From Spirogloea muscicola (taxonomy: Eukaryota > Streptophyta > Zygnematophyceae > Spirogloeales > Spirogloeaceae): a stretch of 34,081 nucleotides of DNA. Below the pieces are notes generated by a model. It was given only the letters and a program-made list of their open reading frames with translations, was not told the DNA's origin and searched no databases. The position numbers were made by a program, and so were the translations under genes. The stretch covers positions 62,366-96,446 of the forward strand of contig WELB01000315.1 in assembly GCA_009602725.1 (NCBI GenBank), in the 5' to 3' direction. Position 1 is the first letter of the stretch; each line of letters starts with the position of its first letter. Shown here piece after piece: positions 128-26,640 of this stretch.

Positions 128-310
128 TCAGTACCCACGAGTGAGCAACAGCAAGTCAGAATGATCTGAAGCTGGGAAGGAGGCAGCAGCCATAGCGCGG
201 ACAGCGCGCGTGTGGACTGCGTGAGCCACAGAGTGCTGGAGAAGAAAGAAAGTGCCCGCTCATTTCAGAACACCTGGGCGAGGGAGCACAATGTCCAGCT
301 CCGTCTCCCT
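128..310 (-). mobile_element. RLE-type retrotransposon 3' coding tail, inverted copy
   Basis: Read on the minus strand this gives the family's C-terminal signature, with SVAHAVHTRAVRAMAAAS followed by SDLLLLTRGY and a TGA stop at 128-130. The same tail recurs on the plus strand nearby. Only the last roughly 60 codons are present, so this is a fragment. It lies head to head with the plus-strand tail that starts near 290, making an imperfect palindrome. Confidence 0.7.
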
Positions 311-480
311 CTCCTTCCAACGTTCCCTGGCTCACACAGTGCACCTGCGGGCAGCTCTCGTAGCAGCTCTGTTTCTGTTACTTAGCGCTTCCCCTGGCCC
401 CCTTCTCGTACTCTGTTCATTCTTTTTCGGGCTGGTTGTTCCAGCCCCTATTCTCAATGGGCGAGCACTTTCTTCTGCGG
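290..480 (+). mobile_element. RLE-type retrotransposon tail fragment plus 3' hairpin unit
   Basis: Plus-strand translation gives SVSLSFQRSLAHTVHLRA, the C-terminal tail seen in the better copy at 538-1340. It is followed at about 410-470 by the element's 3' non-coding motif, a GGGCTGG/CCAGCCC inverted repeat ahead of an 'ATGGGCGAGC' string. The reading frame has decayed. Confidence 0.65.
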
Positions 481-537
481 GCAGGCCGCGCTTTGGCGGC
501 CACTTCTTGGTCTCGTCGAGGTGCCTCTTCCCCCCCT

Positions 538-1340
538 GCCTCATCGGAGTCATGCAATGCGAGTGCGGTGCCCGCCATGCCGACCCTGCGGAGCTGGCGG
601 CCCACATGCTCCGATGTGCCCACGGCGGCGAGAGGACCGGATCCCATGACCTTCTCAGGGATGGCATGCAGGGTGTCTACATCGAGGCGGGCTACAAGGT
701 GGCCGTGGAGCACTCGTCGATAATGCCCCCCGTGTGCGCAGCGCCGATGCTCAGCTCCACACTCGGCGCGCAGACCTAGTCGCCATCCCGCCCGGCGGCG
801 GTCCGCGTATCATCGCGGATGTGGTGACCGCCGACTGTGTCGACTCCGCCAATCCCTCCAAGTCGGCGGCGACCGCTGGGCATGCGGTCGCTTTGGCGGC
901 CCGGGGCAAGGAGCGGAAGTATGCAGATCACCCCTCAGGCGATGAGTTCGCGGCCCTTGCCATAGACGTCCACGGGGCTTATGGCAGCGGCTGGCTGGAT
1001 CTCCTCCAGCGGCTTGCCCGGCAGGCCATGGAGCGGCGGCCGGGTCCGCCAGGGGGGCTGCCCGGCTTCAACGCGGCCGGCTCCCTGGCCCAGGTCTTCC
1101 GGATGCGGCTCTCCGTGTCGCTTCAACGCTCCCTAGCTCATGCCGTCCACTCGCGCGCGGGCCGTGCTCTTGTTGCTGCTTCCGGGTCTCGCCTGCCTGC
1201 ATCCTTTCCAGCGCTCTTTGGCTGATGCGGTCCACGCGCGGGCTGGCCGTGCTATGGCTGCTGCTTCCGGGTCTCGGCAAAGTGCCGCTTCTCCTGCTCC
1301 GAGTTACTCTGATCTGCTGTTGCTCACACGTGGATACTGA
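538..1340 (+). mobile_element. RLE-type non-LTR retrotransposon: zinc knuckle and endonuclease C-terminus (broken)
   Basis: This is the best-preserved plus-strand copy. It encodes a CCHC knuckle (CECG, then 11 residues, H, 4 residues, C) near 552-610. After a frame change around 720-735 comes the restriction-like endonuclease core: RRADLV, 14 residues, then a second Asp (ADVV), followed downstream by KERKY and by AIDVHGAYGSGWLDLLQRLA. The CCHC knuckle plus the D-X(12-14)-D core matches the RLE C-terminus of R2-like non-LTR elements. The tail QRSLAHAVHSRAGRAL is then partly duplicated, ending in SDLLLLTRGY and a stop at 1338-1340. No reverse transcriptase lies upstream, so it is 5'-truncated and frame-broken. 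Confidence 0.8.
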
Positions 1341-4804: not shown

Positions 4805-7800
4805 ATGTGCAGCTTGCAGCCAGCGGCAGCCGCGGCGAGCCTCGTGCGCAGCTGCCTCCGGCGGTGGTGGGCGCCCGCGACGCCGCCCGAGAGCGCGCCG
4901 CTGCTCGGCCAGCGGGCTGCGAGACACACCAACGCCGCTGGCGGTGCAGCGACTGGCGACGGCGACAAGGCGCGCTCGAGGAGGTCCGCTGCGTAGCCGT
5001 GAGATGGCGGCCATCGCGGCATAGTCGCCAACCTCGCGGCTATGTCTTGGCAGTGGCCGTGCCTGATGTCCTGTGCTTGGTCGCTTTGCTTCAGGAAGGG
5101 AGGACAGCGGACTGCTGGCGTCAACGCCACGACCGCCGTCGACTGGTCGTTCGCCCTCCGCCTGCTGCGGCTCGCACGGCTGGCACGAGCTCGAGTGAGC
5201 ACTGCTGCTATCACGCTTAAGTCTGGGCTGTAAAGGGCAGGACTTGGGCATCAGAGTCAAGGCCTACAGTGTGAGGTCTAGCCCCGGGCTCTGCGGCCTT
5301 TGCGTAATTGCTTGTGCGCACTGGCAATGCCTTCACCGAGGCTCCCGCGCTGAGCTACCACTGACCAGAATTGTGCAAGTCATCAAGTATATGCAAAGTG
5401 TTGTTGTGCTCTTAGCTCAGTTGCAGCAAGCCTTTATCTTCATCTCCTAGTTCTAGACCCGCAGTCTAGGCCCTTATCTAAAAGCCGGAGTGCCAACGGC
5501 TGTGACAGGGTGCTCTGCTCCTGGTGGCGCTGGCCCTTGCCCACGTGCTGGTGACCGCGCAGGTCGGCCAGCTGGCTGGCCTCTTCTACAAGGCGCTGGT
5601 TGATGGGAATGCTTCGGTAGCTGCCCCCGAACCCAATTGTCAAGGGCCTCATATTGGATTCCCATGTCTTTACATCTGCTATGATCATACGCCAAATTGG
5701 TCACGGCAAGCCCTGTTGTGCACGTCGAAATCAAGTTCAGGAGCACTTGCCTTGGTATTACTTGTTATATCATGGCTCGAAGCACAACCCAATCCTAGTC
5801 GAGACCTGTCCAGAAGCTGACAGAAAGGGGACTGAGTTTGGTCTTGTGGCTTACACTGCAACGTCTAAGCTTCAGCATCAACATTGAAGCCACTTCCATG
5901 CCCTTTTCTTTATCATTGGTAATGTCTCCATGGTGCTCAAGCCACTGAAATAACTATGCAAACTTTGCCAAGCTCTTCTGGCGGGCGGTGAAGTGCAATG
6001 TGCTGTGGTACGGCCTGGCGACGCTTGGGAGCGCGGCACAGCAATGGGCGGCGGAGTGGCTGAGTCTGGGGTGGCGCCGCAACCTTACGCGAGCTGTGCA
6101 TGAGGCCTACTGCCGCAATGCCGCTTTTTACCGCGTCGGCCTGCACTTTCAAGAGCTGGACAACCCGGACCAGCGCATCGCGCAGGTAGTGACTTGCATT
6201 GAGCAGCTGCAACTTGCCCCAAGTTGGCATTTCACGACACTCGGCTTCTGATGGAGCCATCCTCTAATCATTGCCTAGACCTCTGCAGCATGTAGTTTAC
6301 ATCCCAATCAAGTGGCTCTGTTGCTGAAGCACAAGCACACACAAGCTTTGCAGGAGATCAGCAGCTTCTGCAGAGGGCTGGCTAATTTCCTGGCAAAGAC
6401 AGTGGCTGCCCCGTTCATGGTCCTATACTATGGATGGTGGACCTGGTCCCGAATGGGGTGGTATGCACCTGCCACTGGAGTTCTCTTCTTCCTCATGGCT
6501 GCAGCCTTGACGAGAAGGATTATCTCGCCCATCGCCGCGCTGGTGGCCAAGCAGGACAGGCTGGAAGCTGACTTTCGAATGTCCCACTTCAGGTAGCACC
6601 ATGGGCAGCGGTAATCACTAGATGACTGACTTGCCAGCTAGCAAAAGAGAGAGAACTGCAACTTCTTCCGGGCTACTTGTTGTCGATCTTGCAAAATTTC
6701 TGGCAAGGGGCTTCATAGGTACAATTGTCCTGTGGACTGCCATATTTGACTGACGAGATCCTTCACAGGCTGAAGAATTACGCCGAAGAGGTGGCTCTCC
6801 ATGGCAGTGGCCCCACGGAGGCGCACTACCTGGACGCGGACCTCACGAAGGTCCTGACTAACCAGAGGCTCCTTGCAGACCGCCACTTCCTGCTCAAGCT
6901 CGCCACCGGAGCCTGTGACTATTGTGGTCTGTAACCTGGCTTATCATGCTCTTCTAGTCACAAAGTGTTTACAATCTTGTTCGTAGACCTCCTTGACAAA
7001 TTGCCGCAGGTGTATTCCTCGGTGGCCGTGCAGCATCCTGGTAGTACAAAGAATGGAGATGCAGGCGCACCAGTGATTTTGTGCTTGTGCTACTTCTAGC
7101 TGACACAACCTGCCGGTATTTTGGTGCTACCAGGGTCTCTCTCAAGTTACTTGGTGCTGGCGCTGATGATCTTCGGAGGACAAGTTGATAAGACCATGGA
7201 CAAGGGCGCCATGGCTCAGCTGATCAGCAACTCTGCATTTGCAATACTACAGCTTATTTACAGGTATGAGTGTAGTTTAGTGGCTCTGCTGTGTTTGAAC
7301 ACAACTCGTCTTTGTGCTAACAAATTCCCATCAATAATCCGCTGGATGGTCCGCTTCCTCATGATACTTGCCAGCATCCTCATCAGAGTTGCCTCGTGCT
7401 TATAAAATAGGACAGCTTACTTGCCTTTATGGTTTGCGTGTACATATCTCACCTCAAGCACTGAGCGAGAGCTTTCTTTCCAGCTTCTCTCAGGTCATTG
7501 ACGCTTCCAAGGTTCTCTCAGAGGTGGCCGGCGCAGCCTCAAGAGTGGCAGAGCTATTGGAAGTGTTTGACACCATGTCTAGTGATTTGAAGGAGCCGAC
7601 GACTGCTGAGCAAACACTGGATATAGCCAGCTTCCCAGCTAAACCAGATGGCAGCATTGGCAGCTACGCACTGGCGATCACGGAAAACCCAGAGCTCGCC
7701 TCCAAAGAAGTTCTCATTGGCCCTGCATCTGTGACCCTCCCCAGCGGTGACGATACCGAGTTCTCCATCCACCGAGCCCCAGTGGAGCTTCTGAGCTTGC

Positions 7801-10043
7801 TGGCTGCAGTCTTTCCCGGGGTCTCGCCAGATGACATGCTCATCGTTTCGACGTTCCAGCGCAGTGCGCTCGACCTTTGTGCTGGTATCGCTGACGACCA
7901 AGACGAAGTTGCGGAGGAGATGGACCGGATGCTGGCCGCATTCCTCAGCTTCCAGATCTCAGTCTGTGAGTTTCTCAGAGGAAGGGGCCATTGGGCGGAC
8001 GCAGTCGACCCCAAGTCCGGGCATGCGCTTGCACCAAGTCCAGAGCGCCCAGTCCGGAGCCCCCAGTCCTCAATCGCGGATGGACAGGCAGCAGTCCTAC
8101 AAAGCCGCCTGCCGTACAGTGAAGCATACGCAGCCAGCGTCCTGCTGGGTTATGCGATGGTGGAGGCTGGCGCGTGCATTGTAACACGCCACCCAGTGTT
8201 TGGCACCCGCTGCTACCCGGCATCGCTCTTCACTAAGGCCCCACTGCAGGACCTGCTTCTTGCCATTGACCAAGTTGCTCCACACAGCATTCGTAATGAA
8301 CGAGCTCGAGTGACAGGCAGTCATAGTTTTGGTGGTAGAGGATGTCATGTGGAGCGGATTCGAAGTCACAGCATATTGGATATGTGCGACAGCGGATCTG
8401 CATCTGCCCATTTGGCTCATGAAGACTGTCGTCCAGATACAGAGCCACTTTCAAGAGAAGCAAGATGCAATGGGGAAGCTTCAAGTCAACCTATCCTTCT
8501 GGGGTTTCATCACTTGACCTTGTGTGCACCCAGGTCCGAGCTGGTTCTCATCAAAGACTTGTCTGTTACTGTGGCTGCTGGGAGATCCTTGCTCGTGATG
8601 GGAGACAGTGGGGCCGGCAAGTCCAGCCTCGTCCGCGCCATTGGTCGCCTGTGGCCGCTTGCGGCAGGTCCTATTCCTTGCTTGCTCACCTGTGGCCCCT
8701 GATGCACCACTGCAAATCAAAACCCACCAGAGTGACATAAAAGCATACCAAGAGCCACAGGCTGTGCTTGTGCAACTATGGTGACTGCATGACAATGTTA
8801 AGCTCTTCGCATTCCATACTGTGCAGCGCAGGGCCAAGTCGGCAATACAATGTGCTCTTGCTTATTCGTCGGAAGAGCTTATATTGCTGTTATGTTGTAG
8901 TTGAAATCAGATTGAGCTTCCTCTTGACAGGCACGGTAAAGAGCACCCCTGGCCTCCGGACCTTGTACGTCACACAGAGGCCACTGCTTTGCCGGGGCGG
9001 CCTTGCTGCTCAGATCCTGTACCCAAGGAAGCCTGACTCAATGTCGTGCAATGAGGGTACTGCTTCGTGGCTGGAGCCTTTCCTCGAGATGGTGGGCCTC
9101 CAGGACCTACTCCGCCTCACCGGCGGCGACTGGAATGTAAGACTCAGATAGGTGGCAGCGGACTATGTGATTCTTTCAAGCATTTGCGTGGCTCATATGT
9201 GAGCCACAGATTCTCTTTGTGAGCATTGTTGCAGGATGCATGCCTCAAACATTGGCACGTACATATTTGTAGTATGCGCACAGATGTGCCAGGATCTCAA
9301 AATTATCGGCCAATTGCACGAATGCATGATAAGTCCTTCCTACGGGTTTTGAGGTGTCTTGCTCATTTTGGGCAGAGCTTCATCGTGAATCTTGCTGTGG
9401 ACTGATGTTATGCTTTGCCCAGGTGCCTCTTGACTGGAGCCGGGAGCTGTCACCAGGCGAGCAGCAGAGCCTGGTGCTTGCTCGGGTCCTGTGCCACCGC
9501 CCGCAGCTTGCCATACTGGACGAGGCAACGACTGCCATAACAAAGCAGGCAGAGGTTGGCTGCTGGCCAAAGATGCTTCCTGTTGAGAAACAATGGCATG
9601 ATGTCCATTGTCTACCGCTTCCTCTGCTTCATTCACTACCTTTGCTTCTTCTACTTTGAAAGCCATAACCAGGAGCTCCTAAGAGTCCTGCTCGTGGCAA
9701 GGCAAGCAATAGCAACATATAGGTCCTCATATGTACTACCGGCAGCGTCTGTATGAACGGCAATTGCTACTGCGAGACTCTGTTGGCAGTCTCGTTTCCT
9801 CAACGAGCTGTAACCAGGTGGGCTCTATCTGCTCATCTGCACAACATTGTGGGCTTTCTTTGCTCACAGGCACAATTTTATGGGCACCTGGTGGCCACTG
9901 GTACGTGCTTTGTGAGCTTGTCTCATGGCAGCTCGCTGGAAAAGTGGCACCACAGTGTGCTCACGCTGCTGGGCGACGGGCGGGGTGGCTGGCGCCTTCG
10001 ACCGTCGACCATTGCACCTTCAGACAGCTCCCAGGCCTCTTGA
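4805..10043 (+). CDS. ABCD4-type ABC half-transporter with internal CblD (MMADHC)-like domain
   Basis: Eleven exons join in phase: 4805-4983, 5095-5194, 5509-5616, 5973-6185, 6354-6592, 6769-6926, 7134-7263, 7484-8667, 8931-9136, 9423-9554, 9870-10043, giving 940 residues. Residues 1-70 are Ala/Arg-rich and may be a targeting region. The ABC membrane domain follows to about 405 and holds the subfamily-D hallmark NPDQRIAQ (193-200), EADFR (276-280) and a DYCGSLSSYLVLAL helix as in ABCD4. Residues about 435-643 are the CblD-like domain. The ATPase domain has Walker A GDSGAGKSS (749-757), Q-loop VTQ (Q786), signature LSPGE (848-852), Walker B LAILDE (D872, E873) and H-loop LSHGSSLEKWH (H902). 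LSPGE and SLEKWH favour ABCD4 over ABCD1-3. ABCD4 exports cobalamin from lysosomes in animals; a half-transporter should act as a dimer. The same role here is inferred. Exon 1 and a possible small intron in 8290-8470 are the least certain parts. Confidence 0.88.
7660..8285 (+). other. CblD/MMADHC-like cobalamin-trafficking domain inside the ABC transporter exon
   Basis: This stretch lies in the 1,184-base exon 7484-8667, in the same frame as the last membrane-domain helices (VIDASKVLSEVAGAASRVAE) and as Walker A. It encodes VFPGVSPDDMLIVSTFQRSA, an acidic helix EVAEEMDRMLAAFL, CEFLRGRGHWADAVDPKSG (WAD at 546-548), and GACIVTRHPVFGT ending ASLFT. These match the MMADHC C-terminal (nitroreductase-like) domain in order and spacing, including the GYWADFIDP and VIRHSLWGT hallmarks. 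MMADHC binds MMACHC and steers cobalamin to its enzymes. At the GCC pair of the animal protein this one has Gly-Ala-Cys (Cys607). The next 180 bases to the ATPase domain are open but of unknown content. Confidence 0.85.
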
Positions 10044-14288: not shown

Positions 14289-17200
14289 CTAGCGCAGATA
14301 ATTGGTGTCATCCTTCTCAAGTAACTCGGGACAGGATGCTTGTCCTCTCATGGAGACCCTGCTGACTTGTATGGGCACCTCCATCTGCATGACATTCCAG
14401 CCTTGGAGCACAAGCCTTGGCACCTGGCCATCCTTCACACGGAACGTCACCCTGACATCTCGCCGTTCTCCAGGCACGAGGGAGAGGTAGTTATCCGAGT
14501 AGCGCACAGGTAAGATTCTGCCGTCTCCCAAGGTGTCGCTGCCGGCAGGTCCCCTGGCAAAAACGGCCAGCTGAAGCCAGAAGGCTATGCAGAGTGAGCT
14601 GTCACCATCAGCCTCCTCGGTGCTGCCTCGTACACTCGTTTCGGTGCTGCCTCGTACACTCGTTTCGGCAGCCGTGCACGGCGCCAAACGCTGCCTGTGA
14701 TACTCAAGAAATCGATTATGCTCATCCTCGGTCGCTGCCTCAGTGGATGGACGTGTGCAGCCACCATGACAGACCAGGGGCACCAGTCCCTGCAATGCAG
14801 TGCGCCCCCTGCTTTCGCATGTATTCTCAAGGGACACAGCAACCTCGTACTCATCAGCATTGACGCTCACAGTCGCGATAGCGGACACTTTGGCCTTTCT
14901 CTCTCTAAACGAGCCTTGCAGGGCAGCATAGTCAGCTCCCTTCTTGTGCAGCCAGTAGAAGTTGCGCGACACAGTGTGGCCCTCAGAGGTCTCAAGAGCC
15001 AAGCTGAGGAAGTATACGGGGCTGATCCCAATACACGAGCAACTTGGCACCTGCACAAGGACAAAAGTGGACTGGGCAACTCTCATCAGATATTCTGCAC
15101 TGTGCAAGAGCTTGTTAAGTACACAGACCATTGATGTGCATTATGCGGCCCAGCAAGCTGAGGGCTAGTCGACTGAGTCTGAAGCATCTCACAATCCCTT
15201 CATTACCTTCTTTACATCAATTGACTAGCACATTCTTGTGTATTGTATAACTAATTCCACAAGTGCTCGCTTAGGTGCGAGCACTTCTCCAGCCCAATGT
15301 GACTCCACATACCTGGGAGATCCTTGAGCTGGTGTGGGCTGGTAAGTCAATTTCCTCATACATGTCTCCGCTAGGGCAGGAACCATCGAGATTGAATATG
15401 TTAGCCAGCACTTTGACACTCCTCAGGTGTTGTCGTGTTGTGTTGATGACCTGAAAGACACCCAAATGACATTAGCAGGTGAACACTTTGCAGTATGATG
15501 CTCTTCGACCAAAGGGCATTGGGCGGCTTTCCTTGATGCATCCTGTCAAAGACGACCTTTCCGAACTAGAATGACGACTCTCCAGGTGATGCAAAGAAGA
15601 TCCAAGTCATGCACAAAAAGAGTAATTGGTGTGACCTTCATCATGGCCATAAAACTAGACCAGAATGTTACCTCCACAGCACAACTATGAGGGTTGTACT
15701 GGATATGGATGGGCTCCGCTGCAAGTTTGGTACCAAAAAAGCCACCAGTCACATCAAGAAGCGAGTCATAGAGCTGTCCTCTTAAACCTGGCCAAGGATT
15801 CTGAGTCTTCCAGATGAGTAGACCGGTGTATGACGTCCACATGCGAGAATTCCATGACTCAATCAATGCTCGGTATTGGACATAGTTCACCAGCTGCGCC
15901 TGAACGTCAGATTGACACAATATTTAGCAATAGAGACAAGCTGTAGCGTTACAGATAAGAAACGCTCTGTAGAGGTTGCTTCTTCGCCCATAACAGGCTT
16001 TGATATGACAGGGTGCAAGAAAGAGTGAGGAGAGCAACAGATGCTATCTCTAATGTATAGCCTCATCCTTGTCCTCTTCTAACAGTCTGCAGATACTCTT
16101 GGATGCAAAATCAAAGAGTGGGAGGGATACAATCCTTTACACTATACGACATAGAGCTATAGCAAATAAGGCATGACTGACCTTCTCACAGAAATCATCA
16201 AGGTCCGCATAAGAACCATACTGAGTAATTTGATTGGGCACCACATTTGGTTGTGAATGAGGAATATAAGCGTGTTGCGTCCAGGTCTCATTTGGCACCT
16301 CAATCTCTCCTCCTCCTGGCTGTGCCATGATGACAGGAGGGCTCCATGCTTCAATAGGCATGGTCGCTCTCACTGTGGCTGCTACTGGCACACCCACGGA
16401 GCCTACAGTGCATGCAACACAAGGCAGCTTGTCAGCCCTCTCCAGACCTTGCGGGTGCACTAATGCATGCATGCTGTGCACATAATAAGTATGAGTTACA
16501 CATGGGTTGTGGGTTCACCAATCTCGGGGTTAAAGGCGTACGGATAGAAGTTGTCCTTGAAGAATGTCTCTGGTTCCTGAATTGTGTATGGCCCATCGCG
16601 GAAGTCCCCATTCCCCTTCGCAAAGCCTTCCCAAAGAGAACCCTGGATGTAGATCCTGCTACCATCCAAGCACCTGCTGGGGTCATCCTTCTTACCATGC
16701 TGACTACCACAGATGGATGACGTGCCTAATGGGTAATCCGGTTGACAGTGTGTCAGATGGCAGCATATCCATGCTGAGGAAGGTAATGCAGAAGGTGGTG
16801 CTTCATTGGAGGTCAGCCCAATGGTCGAATCGCGTGAAGTGACCAATTCGTCTGAGGGCATCCAACTTTCTGCCTCTGTATCCTTGTCCACGATTCTCTT
16901 GTCGGAGATACCACGCAAGTGTAACCAGCTTTGCAGGGCGTCATTGATATCCTTTGCTGGATGCTGTTCATTTCCTCCGACCCAAAGAGCAAGGCTGGCA
17001 TGGTTTCTGAGCATCTTGATTGTGTCTTCGGCGGATTGAAGGAACAGGGCGTGATCAAGTGGCCAACTTGACTCTGATGGCGGAATGCCTCTCCCATTGC
17101 AATCTCCGGTGATCCAGAACTCCTGCCACACCTGATGACCCGAAGCAGAGCAAGCAATTGAGAACCCACCCACAAGCACACAGGGTGGACAAGGTATAGC

Positions 17201-20200
17201 CTGCAGCAATCACCTATATCTACCTCATAAGTCAAGCAATTGTAAGTAACTGATGGGGTGGACTGCGAGATAATGAGTATGTCTCTGTCAGAATGGCAAG
17301 GACGCTTGTCAACCCGAAACACTCCTGCAAGCCAACGGGCGACAAATATAAATGGCCTCATACTTCTGAGTAACATTTCATCAGCATGACCCAAAACAGG
17401 AGGTACTTGCTTACAAGGAGACCAAGCTCGTCACAAGCATTGTAGAAATCGGGACGCTCTGCGAGGGCGCCTCCCCAGATTCTCATCATATTGAGGTTCA
17501 TATCGGCATGAAACTGCAGCTCAGTATTGTACCTTTCTTTGGACAGCCTCAGCATGCCATCTGACACTATCCAATTTGCACCTCGGATGAAAAGAGGCTC
17601 TCCATTTACAAAAAACTTCCTGTGATTATGTCCCACAATGATGACACAGTCATGACCTGCACAGCTAATGATTTCTCATGGCGCAACAACAACAATGGCA
17701 ATCTACTTTCCATAACCGTGACACCACCTTCGGCCTCCTACTAGATTGAATCTAGTGGCATACTGATACCACTTACCACAGGAACATGAGGACAGCAAGC
17801 ACAGCAAAAGCAGCAGCTACAAGTTACTTAAGTGTCGATTCAGCTGTGACCCGCAATAGGTGTCACCTGCTTGCTAGCCTGTCTCCGAGCCCTGACATGG
17901 CTCGAGCAGTATGCAAGAGACTAACCTTCCCCCCGTGTCATCATCAATCACACTCTCAATGTCGCGGAAACCAAATCTGCCCATCCACGTGTCACTTTCT
18001 CCATAATGTCTGATATCTAAAATGATCTGAACTGAGTAGAGCGGTTGAGAGCCCATCCCATTGGGCCACCAAAGCCTAGGCTTCCTGAAGGTCAGCTGAA
18101 TAAGAGGCGTACAAGACAACACAACAAAGTGAGAATGAGTAACACCTTGCTCTCGTGCCAATGTTGTTTTTCACATATGATGGAGCAATTTCACATAACA
18201 ACGTCTACACGAACGATAACCATATCAGTTGACCGAACACTTGTAATTCAGATTGTATTCCAACTATGCAGTCGTAAATGAGTGAGAATGGGGAAGGCAT
18301 TCTCAAGAACCTGCAGAAAGGAAAAGCAAGACCCGAACGGGCATCCTCACGGGACTCACCGGTCGCAAAGTATGGAGGACAGACTCGTGGGCAGTCAACG
18401 TGATGTCCTCTGTATAGACATGTTCAATGCACACCAGGCCGCCTCCTTCTGGATCATCCAAAGAAACCTCAACAGTGAGGGTCCCCTGGCATGAATGTGG
18501 CAAACGGTTGACTAGCATCGCTGAAATGTGCAGCTTTGCTGTCTGGTAGGACCTCCTCGCTTGCCTCTCTTCCTCCTGAAATACTGCCACCAAGTGGGGG
18601 TCTCGCAAAACCGCTGGCTGGAAGGCAAGGGGTTGACATTAACAAGGTTGCTTGTCAATGTCTTTGAACAGACAATAATACTGTTTCTGAAGGGAAAGAG
18701 AATCGGTTTTAATCAGGAGCTCAAAAGCTAGAGTGGAAAAAAATCGAGCAGTCTGCGGGCCAGTGACCCAACTCACCCCTGACACAGAGACCACAACCTT
18801 GTCCCAAATGCCAGTATTCCGGTCCCTGCACGATGTCAAGGTGGCACTGATAAGGTCATAATATTATAAGCTATTGCATAGCCCTTTGGAAAGCACTAGA
18901 TGCAAGCATGAGGAACTGCCGTGATGGGATGAAGCAGCCTAGGACGCATGACTGCTATGTGGTGTAAGACATCCTGATGACGTGCAAGTGAAGCAGTTCT
19001 CGTCTCCAGCAAGGGATGCTAAGTTGCTGGTACGAGGAAAGTGCGCAAACGATAACCATGCCAGATTGCTCGTACACAGCTGACGTACTAGAGACCTTTG
19101 GGTAATAGTGCTCTGAAGGACTGCTTTGACCAATATTTACCAAGGGAAACAAGTATCACAATATGCTGGTCGAGCAATTTCAACATTGACGACATTCATA
19201 TTCCCAGACTGGCAAGAGCTCAAAATGTTGACACTTCCAACAACTCAGACCCTCTGCATCTTTTGAATGGTGAATGTGGAGGCTGACCTAATGGGAATGA
19301 TCCAATCCCAGCCCTCAACATACTGGGCAGTTACATCCTTGGCTATCTGCAACTTGTCAGACCACAAGATCAACATGAACAAATGTTGCACACAATTGAA
19401 GCACAGTATAGCAATATGTAGCAATTAACCATTAAGCGAGCTTTATGGAGCAGAGGAAACTCACATCGTGGTCACCACCCTGGCCCCCACCTTGGACATT
19501 GCCAGGGTGGTCAGGCGGGTGCACAAGTACAGCGAGTTGGTTGGTCCCCCCCCAGACGACATCGGTGATGTCAGCCTGGTGCCTGAGGAACATTCCCTTT
19601 GTCTCTGCCACCTTGAATCCGTTGACATATATTTCTGCCGAGTAATTGATGCCGCAAAACTCCAACCATACCCTGGATGTGAGCTGCTCCAACATGCTTC
19701 AGAAAAGGAAGTCAGCCCATATCGTCAACTGCAAGAGCGACACCAACTCAAGCAGCTCTACAGACCACAGATCGAGATTACCGTGAGGTGGGAGATGGGC
19801 GACCCTGGCAACTCAAAGGAGGTGCAGAACCAGAACGTGTAAAAGTCGCGACCAGCGGTGTGGATGTCAGGGATCTGCTGGTTGTTGAGACCATAGAACG
19901 GGTCTGGAAAAATCCCGTTGTGCACCAGGGTGGTCAAAACTCTGCAGGGTCTTGACCAGGACGTGGTCAAGGATGCTGCGCCCACAAGCATGCAGCGTGG
20001 CTTGGGTGCAACATATTTGCATGAATCGGAGCTAAGGTCCTGCTGGGGCCCCGCATCCGCTGCACTCTGCTATTCTGTGGTGCTTGAGGCCAGGCAGCTA
20101 AGCTTCTCCTCCACTAGACTATTGCAGTAATAGTGTGCGAAATCCTTTCTACTTTCAATGGGCTGCCTTGATGCTCCATCGAGTAGTACAGAATGAATGG

Positions 20201-25180: not shown

Positions 25181-26640
25181 CCCGCTCAGTAACCACGAGT
25201 CAGCACATAGAGGTCGCTAACTGATGCTCGAATACCGGATGGCAATCGACAAGCTCTTGAACTACCAGCCAAAGCTCGACCAGCTTTCTGATGCAACGCA
25301 TGAGCCTGAGGAGAGGAGAGAGCCTGAGCTCGCTGCAGACAAGCTGACACTCAACGTCGCAAAAATGATAGATGGGCAGCCGGCATACCCACCTGGGCTG
25401 GAAGCATATCCTCGCGTAGTGCATATCCCAGACTCGCTATGTTCTCAAGTAGGGTATGGAAGCGAGGACCCATGCAGCCGAAAGTGTCGATTGCGGCCGG
25501 GAGAAGGTGGTCGCTGCGGGGGTAGTCAGAGTAGTGTCGGAGCTTTCCCTGCTCAGCACCTCCCACTGCGTGGCCAGCAATGTGCGTAGAAGCGGAACTC
25601 TTGTATGCCTCGGTCACCACGACATCCACCAAGGCTCGTGGGCCTCCGCCGGGTTGTACACCCACAATGTCCAGGGTGCGACGGTGATGGCGACCCTAGG
25701 GATCCGTGGTGATGGGCATTACATTGCTTACTCCACGATGGCGCGGTAGCAGGCGTCGCGCATCAAGCCCGCCAGGGCGTCTCGTAGGAGATTGTGGACG
25801 CCCACCACCTCAGGCCCTGTGGGACACCGCAGCATGTGGGTGGCTAGGTCTCCGCCCTCCGCAACGAAGCCACACTCACACTGAGTTACTCCAATTAGGC
25901 AGGTCGGGGGCAGGCCCAGGAACAGCTGGAGAAGCGTCCGGAATGCTTCAGGGCTGATTTTGAAAGCGTTGTAGATTGCGTGTGTGGTGAGCCAATTCGT
26001 TGCCCCAGGCGTTGCGAGCGATGTGAGACGTGCCAGAATCCTTGGATTGGTCTTCATATCCGGCATCGTCCTCAACGCCTTGCGACGCTCGTCCTCAACT
26101 GCAGCAACGAGTCTGGCCTGTGCCGCTTTGTCTGGTGCTTGAGCAAGCGCGGGGTGAGGAGGGGTTGTAAGGAGGGGAAGGAGCAGAGTGCTGACTCCTG
26201 GACGCTCCTCAATTGCACTTGAAATGCCAAGGAGCCTTCCTCCACCTCGGCTGCAGGGCCGGCCAGGCAAGGGAAGCGTAAGGGAAGAAAGGAGGCAACC
26301 GGGTGCCAGCAACCGAGAAAGGCTGCCTGCGCCGTCTGTTCAAGTGACCGGCAGCCCAGGCCGCCCATTCGTGTGGGAAGGGATGCCTGCAGGGAGGATG
26401 AAGGTGAGGGGAAGGATGGGTGTTTAATCAGGGAAGCCAGGGTTTGCAGGAGGGAGGTGTTAAACTCCTTATACAGCTCGCGCACCATGTCTGTTGGGGC
26501 GACTGTTCGCTGCAGGTAGCCAGCTCGTTGACCGGTTGCAGCAAGTTAGGATGGCCAGCGACAGCTGCGGATCCGAGGAGAGGAAGGGAGGGAAGGGGGG
26601 CAAGGTGTTGATGCAGACGTTCACGTAAGTCCTCCACAAC
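25181..26640 (-). mobile_element. RLE-type non-LTR retrotransposon, 5'-truncated and frame-broken
   Basis: On the minus strand this is the longest element remnant. From 26488 downward it encodes LPTRMGGLGCRSLEQTAQAA, a typical reverse-transcriptase C-terminal (thumb) motif. A shifted frame then gives ATPGATNWLTTHA and the zinc knuckle CECG(11)H(4)C near 25830-25880. Another frame gives the endonuclease core (VDVVVTEA, KLRHYSDYP) and AIDTFGCMGPRFHTLLENIA, ending in the tail unit at 25180-25260. At least two frameshifts make it inactive. The RT palm is missing. Confidence 0.82.

Follow-up and report, generated by a model that had tools for sequence, protein, structure and literature searches.

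The stretch of DNA analysed here, which we call the window, comprises 34,081 nucleotides of a contig from Spirogloea muscicola (WELB01000315.1), and it carries a gene that appears to join an ABCD4-type transporter to a domain of the CblD (MMADHC) family. Eleven exons, all with GT-AG borders, can be joined in phase to a reading frame of 940 residues that ends in a stop codon (Table 1), which agrees with the initial annotation of this DNA. The splice model is based on the sequence, the reading phase and the conservation across three genomic copies. In the spliced protein, the Pfam domains ABC_membrane_2 (PF06472, residues 95-346, 3.8e-54), MMADHC (PF10229, residues 465-558, 2.6e-13) and ABC_tran (PF00005, residues 733-875, 8.8e-15) follow one another, an order that supports the single polypeptide predicted at the outset.

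Exon 8 measures 1184 bp as compared to 100-239 bp for the ten other exons, and it lies in a frame that is open from stop to stop between positions 7365 and 8702 (445 amino acids, no internal stop). As had been claimed, the last part of the membrane domain, the hallmarks of MMADHC and the Walker A motif are all encoded in this one frame. A run of N, which may mark a gap, is found at approximately 11.2-11.5 kb of the window, just downstream of the gene.

Table 1. Features of the predicted fusion gene, in window positions. dN/dS, ratio of nonsynonymous to synonymous substitution rates among the three genomic copies.
Feature	Position	Strand	Remarks
ABCD4-CblD fusion gene (predicted)	4805..10043	+	11 exons, 940 amino acids; PF06472, PF10229 and PF00005 in this order
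Exon 1	4805..4983	+	Ala/Arg-rich N-terminus, weakly constrained (dN/dS 0.73-0.81, exons 1-2)
Exon 2	5095..5194	+	placed by exon joining
Exon 3	5509..5616	+	membrane domain begins
Exon 4	5973..6185	+	membrane domain
Exon 5	6354..6592	+	membrane domain
Exon 6	6769..6926	+	membrane domain
Exon 7	7134..7263	+	membrane domain
Exon 8	7484..8667	+	carries linker A, the CblD-like domain and linker B between the last part of the membrane domain and the first part of the ATPase (including Walker A)
Linker A, residues 413-452	7593..7712	+	dN/dS 0.47-0.49
CblD (MMADHC)-like domain, residues 453-641	7713..8279	+	dN/dS 0.20-0.26; assigned by homology
GRGHWADAVDPKSG, counterpart of human GYWADFIDPSSG	7980..8021	+	from MMADHC alignment
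Ala codon at position of human MMADHC Cys261	8172..8174	+	from alignment
Codon equivalent to Cys262	8175..8177	+	directly after the Ala codon
VTRHPVFGT motif	8181..8207	+	MMADHC-like stretch, exon 8
Linker B, residues 642-710	8280..8486	+	dN/dS 0.97-1.90; no gap columns
Walker A, GDSGAGKSS	8601..8627	+	in exon 8 frame
Exon 9	8931..9136	+	ATPase domain including Q-loop
Exon 10	9423..9554	+	signature LSPGEQQ, Walker B LAILDEATT
Exon 11	9870..10043	+	H-loop, C-terminus, stop

For the transporter part, the inserted segment was cut out and the remainder aligned to PDB chains, which gave 19 matches with no chain named ABCD2 among them. Human ABCD4 (24VE) reached 312 bits, of which a single continuous alignment of query residues 4-538 with chain residues 44-598 contributes 307, as compared to 191 bits for ABCD3 and 174 bits for ABCD1. 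The double-length plant ABCD1 (9WFG) ranked top as a chain with 396 bits, its halves scoring 209 and 189. The best half-transporter score thus supports the assignment of this part as an ABCD4 orthologue, in line with the initial annotation. In human ABCD4, the site of the insert corresponds to the linker that connects the last membrane helix to the ATPase domain. GDSGAGKSS, the Q in TQRP, LSPGEQQ, LAILDEATT and LSHGSS align to human ABCD4, and we take them to be the Walker A, Q-loop, signature, Walker B and H-loop motifs, respectively. A genome search that used the fused protein as query, and in which 54 of 79 candidates were scored, gave 48 matches, and outside the three copies no transporter exon exceeded 48.5 bits. 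The fused gene seems to be the sole ABCD4 in the genome, though the absence of an unfused one cannot be proven.

The inserted segment belongs to a different family. The exon 8 frame matches the Pfam profile MMADHC with 53.8 bits (3.1e-14, cut-off 27) over positions 122-211 of 272, and the whole spliced protein does so with 50.8 bits. Residues 435-643 had been proposed as the homologous region, and our own limits, 453-641, come close to it. A phmmer search of PDB with the CblD segment retrieved mouse MMADHC at 8e-12 and human MMADHC at 7e-11. A profile built from the three fused copies and three separate algal MMADHC copies (see below) found the mouse and human chains at 4.5e-24 and 1.1e-23, values that are no independent proof for the fused domain, because the profile includes the separate copies. 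The match score is carried by the N-terminal two thirds of the domain.

Individual residues were compared in an alignment with residues 145-286 of human MMADHC. All three fused copies have Ala261, Cys262, Ser182, Gly189, Asp226 and Tyr246 (human numbering), column 189 being alignment-dependent, since a four-residue insertion adjoins it. The separate algal copies, also in three of three cases, have Cys261, Cys262, Ala182, Phe189, Asp226 and Asp246. The core MMADHC positions Asp223, Asp226, Pro227 and Cys262 are retained in the fused domain. As to the roles of these residues, Cys261 is named as the sulfur ligand to cobalamin in human CblD (PMC7847965), while a passage of PMC13376404 holds Cys261 and Cys262 together responsible for binding and loading; the same source describes the human chain of 6X8Z as coordinating thiolato-cobalamin. 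In the human CblD chains of 6X8Z and of 9MRS (the latter entry contains CblC as well), we find Cys at 261 and Ser at 262. Thr182 and Trp189 are described as needed for MMACHC binding (PMC4705923). Judged by homology, the fused domain is a member of the MMADHC family that lacks two functional hallmarks, Cys261 and the pair Thr182/Trp189. From the same homology, a modified nitroreductase fold would be expected.

A search of the genome with PF10229 found the same fused exon on contigs C3, C315 (which contains the window) and C100. The two further copies keep GT-AG at the positions of all ten introns. The introns are 76-96% identical among the three copies and gapped, with 28, 43 and 53 indel events per approximately 2,370 aligned bp in the three comparisons. 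In contrast, exons 3-11 are free of gap columns in all three pairwise comparisons (exons 1 and 2 are gapped). If indels occurred in exon 8 as often as in the introns, its 1184 bp would remain free of gap columns with a probability of 9e-7 to 3e-12. Collinearity of the window with both C3 and C100 extends, with some gaps, over roughly 1.9-20.8 kb, at approximately 78-89% identity in long pieces, and the three segments can be read as homoeologues, consistent with a genome triplication.

dN/dS was determined according to Nei-Gojobori in the three pairwise comparisons. It was 0.07-0.11 in the membrane domain and 0.20-0.26 in the CblD-like domain across the three comparisons, the latter being similar to the 0.21-0.23 of the ATPase. 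Linker A gave 0.47-0.49, and linker B, whose residues are unconstrained, gave 0.97-1.90. Furthermore, the CblD part shows an excess of third-position changes among the copies. The purifying selection on the CblD-like domain implies that it is translated and constrained.

These comparisons speak to the suspicion that the CblD segment might stem from an assembly error, from an intron left unspliced or from a separate gene. Such an explanation could draw on the great length of exon 8 relative to the other exons and on the lack of constraint in linker B, where the absence of indels from 207 bp is only mildly unlikely (P 0.01-0.09); linker B appears to be the least certain part of the gene model. 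However, an assembly chimera is strongly disfavoured, because the same junction would have to recur on three contigs, and the junctions are identical there despite the diverged introns. The gap-free exon 8 and the low dN/dS and third-position excess of the CblD part also speak against this explanation. Moreover, exon 8 contains no in-frame splice pair that would take out half of the CblD domain, if the sites are required to be shared by all three copies and to score no worse than the poorest real site. We therefore regard an artefact of this kind as very improbable, and the observation made in the initial annotation as confirmed.

A separate MMADHC gene, which the initial annotation had suggested looking for, does exist in the same genome, in free-standing copies on contigs C26, C11 and C18, with the cysteine intact. 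The spliced model of the C26 copy reaches 107 bits against PF10229, and its score with human MMADHC is 93.6 bits. With these separate genes present and their Cys261 intact, the fused domain represents a further copy that has diverged. The separate copies too lack Thr182 and Trp189, so that the loss of this pair is in part older than, or unrelated to, the fusion. In the C26 model the MMADHC domain is split over four coding exons, whereas the fused domain is intronless, and one possible route to the fusion would hence be the insertion of a retrocopy into the transporter gene. Exons resembling an ABC ATPase, presumably of the LptB kind, adjoin the C26 copy.

With respect to the B12 pathway, methionine synthase is encoded at two loci of the genome and methylmalonyl-CoA mutase at three (C12, C30 and C95, with 27 exon matches); section 8 of PMC11439496 gives the mutase as not detected in streptophytes. 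The mutase locus C30 also bears light-harvesting exons. An LMBR1-family gene, a possible LMBD1, is present at three loci. For MMACHC, the profile PF16690 found no match in the genome, and the control was likewise silent. The human MMACHC protein as query gave no match at E up to 10, an empty answer that alone shows nothing. Under the same conditions, the human MMADHC query retrieved both the fused and the separate copies, with 10 matches in all, and for this reason MMACHC is likely, though not proven, to be absent or strongly diverged.

The host is most likely a zygnematophycean, Spirogloea or a close relative, to judge from its gene content, because the genome contains GRAS genes (92 exon matches, several in triplets of contigs), chlorophyll a/b light-harvesting proteins and triplicate collinear segments (PMC11712027, on Zygnematophyceae and land plants, for GRAS; PMC7994812 for the assignment). 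The GRAS matches and the triplicated segments thus point away from the chlorophyte host that the initial annotation had in mind. One exon matches light-harvesting complex chains, with LHCI-2 as the best total, followed by many chlorophyll a-b binding protein chains.

How might such a protein work? Human ABCD4 is lysosomal, together with LMBD1, and in liposomes it moves cobalamin toward the ATPase side, with about 50 ATP (by context) per cobalamin (PMC8113721). According to the same source, both ABCD4 and LMBD1 have the cblC and cblD proteins as interaction partners, which are hypothesized to make transport by ABCD4 more efficient in vivo. Homologues of ABCD4 and LMBD1 have been named in Chlamydomonas by BLAST, without domain detail (PMC10828217). 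MMADHC is described as having no known enzymatic activity and as working via protein contact (PMC4705923; PMC7847965), with the C-half of methionine synthase as one binding partner (PMC13376404). Because the CblD-like domain sits in the linker, it should lie on the side toward which human ABCD4 moves cobalamin. A direct contact between ABCD4 and CblD had been put forward as a new prediction; since it is already stated for the human proteins (PMC8113721), it is not new, but the fusion supports it independently, on evolutionary grounds.

We favour, with somewhat more confidence than doubt, the explanation that a diverged C-terminal domain of MMADHC in the linker of an ABCD4-type half-transporter acts as a tethered docking platform. 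The fused protein would dimerise like human ABCD4, such that two CblD-like domains would hang on the ATPase (receiving) side. There they might recruit client proteins, for instance methionine synthase or free MMADHC, to the transporter exit, and B12 could be passed on to the docked clients without dilution. With Cys261 lost, it is unlikely that the platform itself carries cobalamin via the Co-S mechanism known from the human protein, and it is this loss that favours docking over a self-contained cobalt relay. The idea, put forward initially, that export is coupled to chaperone hand-over thus holds insofar as both parts reside in one polypeptide. In its literal form it is weakened, because it needs a CblD that holds cobalt and the fused domain has Ala261 in three of three copies; furthermore, Trp189 is lost and MMACHC was not found.

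Several points weigh against a docking platform. The MMACHC-binding residues Thr182 and Trp189 are changed in all three fused copies, and MMACHC, the known partner, may itself be missing. The cysteine-bearing C-terminal piece of the domain, taken alone, matches human MMADHC weakly (i-Evalues 0.33 and 0.54; E 5.3 and 7.6), and its placement relies on the separate algal copies, to which it is 44-47% identical over approximately 55 residues (E 1e-5 to 8e-5). AlphaFold2, run on the CblD segment alone (window 7665-8318, single sequence, no alignment), returned a mean predicted local distance difference test score (pLDDT) of 39.8. The Ala/Arg-rich N-terminus (window 4805-5194), whose first 50 residues include 5 Arg and 1 Glu, with 0 Lys and 0 Asp, could be an organelle transit peptide. 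Lastly, topology, partners, function and membrane location of the fused protein are predictions from its sequence.

Two other functions have to be weighed against docking. The fused domain could be a working CblD that receives cobalamin directly, via Cys262 or another nearby cysteine. The retention of Cys262 in three of three fused copies, the purifying selection and the naming of both cysteines for binding and loading (PMC13376404) are in keeping with this. However, the residue named as the sulfur ligand (PMC7847965) is Ala in the fused domain, Trp189 and Asp246 are also changed, and the human chains of 6X8Z and 9MRS, with Ser262 next to Cys261, suggest that position 261 suffices. We thus consider a working CblD unlikely. 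The same changes at Cys261, Trp189 and Asp246, along with the failure to detect MMACHC, would suit a domain that has become a structural or regulatory spacer without contact to B12 proteins, for instance an element for ATPase coupling or targeting. Yet a mere spacer would hardly be held at the dN/dS of the ATPase or keep Asp223, Asp226, Pro227 and Cys262, and that its fusion partner should be a B12 transporter would be an odd coincidence, so that we rate it lower still, as rather improbable. A more speculative reading of the fused domain, which we find doubtful and place just behind the working CblD, is that in a lineage without CblC the CblD-like domains of the ABCD4 dimer take cobalamin at the exit, using Cys262 or no thiolate, and load it onto docked methionine synthase, thereby bypassing the soluble CblC-CblD relay.

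The initial annotation knew of no protein with this architecture, and our search of the literature on ABCD4, MMADHC and algal B12 proteins (titles and abstract starts) likewise yielded no ABCD4-CblD fusion. Sections 8 and 9 and further passages of a survey of CblD and CblJ in plants and algae (PMC11439496) make no mention of one. With a few peptide patterns from exon 8, none of 9 pattern matches in a viral contig collection was confirmed. In a collection of genome contigs without eukaryotes, 4 of 549 were confirmed, all of them in bacterial genomes or metagenome-assembled genomes and all confined to the Walker A region (query residues 344-396).

Elsewhere in the window, the minus strand carries, at 14292-17209, exons of a gene resembling an exo-beta-D-glucosaminidase of glycoside hydrolase family 2 (PF18368, 6.8e-14; PF02836, 0.0025, below the cut-off). 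Two similar open stretches, at 225-776 (plus strand) and 25731-26339 (minus strand), share CLIGVxQCECG ... HMLRC and have no Pfam match; they probably derive from a dispersed repeat or a retroelement.

The fusion matters in that it represents a naturally occurring covalent connection between relatives of the human B12 disease genes ABCD4 (cblJ) and MMADHC (cblD), and it lends evolutionary support to a hand-over of B12 at the membrane as opposed to its free release. With Cys261 replaced by Ala in a domain on which selection still acts, the role of CblD in docking is set apart from its cobalt chemistry, such that each can be tested individually. Furthermore, the gene shows that B12 transport machinery has been retained and altered in the class of algae nearest to land plants.

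When set beside known systems, the protein is close to human ABCD4, the lysosomal cobalamin transporter (6JBJ, 24VE), with which it can be aligned over the full length of the membrane domain and ATPase once the insert is removed. It differs in that approximately 300 residues, including the CblD-like domain, replace a short linker, and in the added Ala/Arg-rich N-terminal stretch. The full-size ABCD1 of plants (9WFG) belongs to the same ABCD subfamily and has the top total score, but each of its halves stays below human ABCD4 in its one continuous stretch. The separate MMADHC of the same genome is of the same family as the fused domain and 36-39% identical to it, yet it is free-standing, keeps Cys261, Cys262 and Asp246, and has Phe at 189. 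With the C-terminal domain of MMADHC/CblD (5CUZ, 5A4R, 6X8Z, 9MRS), the fused domain has in common the PF10229 match, the D-P-SG motif and Cys262, and it is 28-31% identical to human MMADHC over residues 145-286. It departs from the human protein in the changes of Cys261 to Ala, Trp189 to Gly and Asp246 to Tyr, in its internal insertions, and in being embedded in a transporter.

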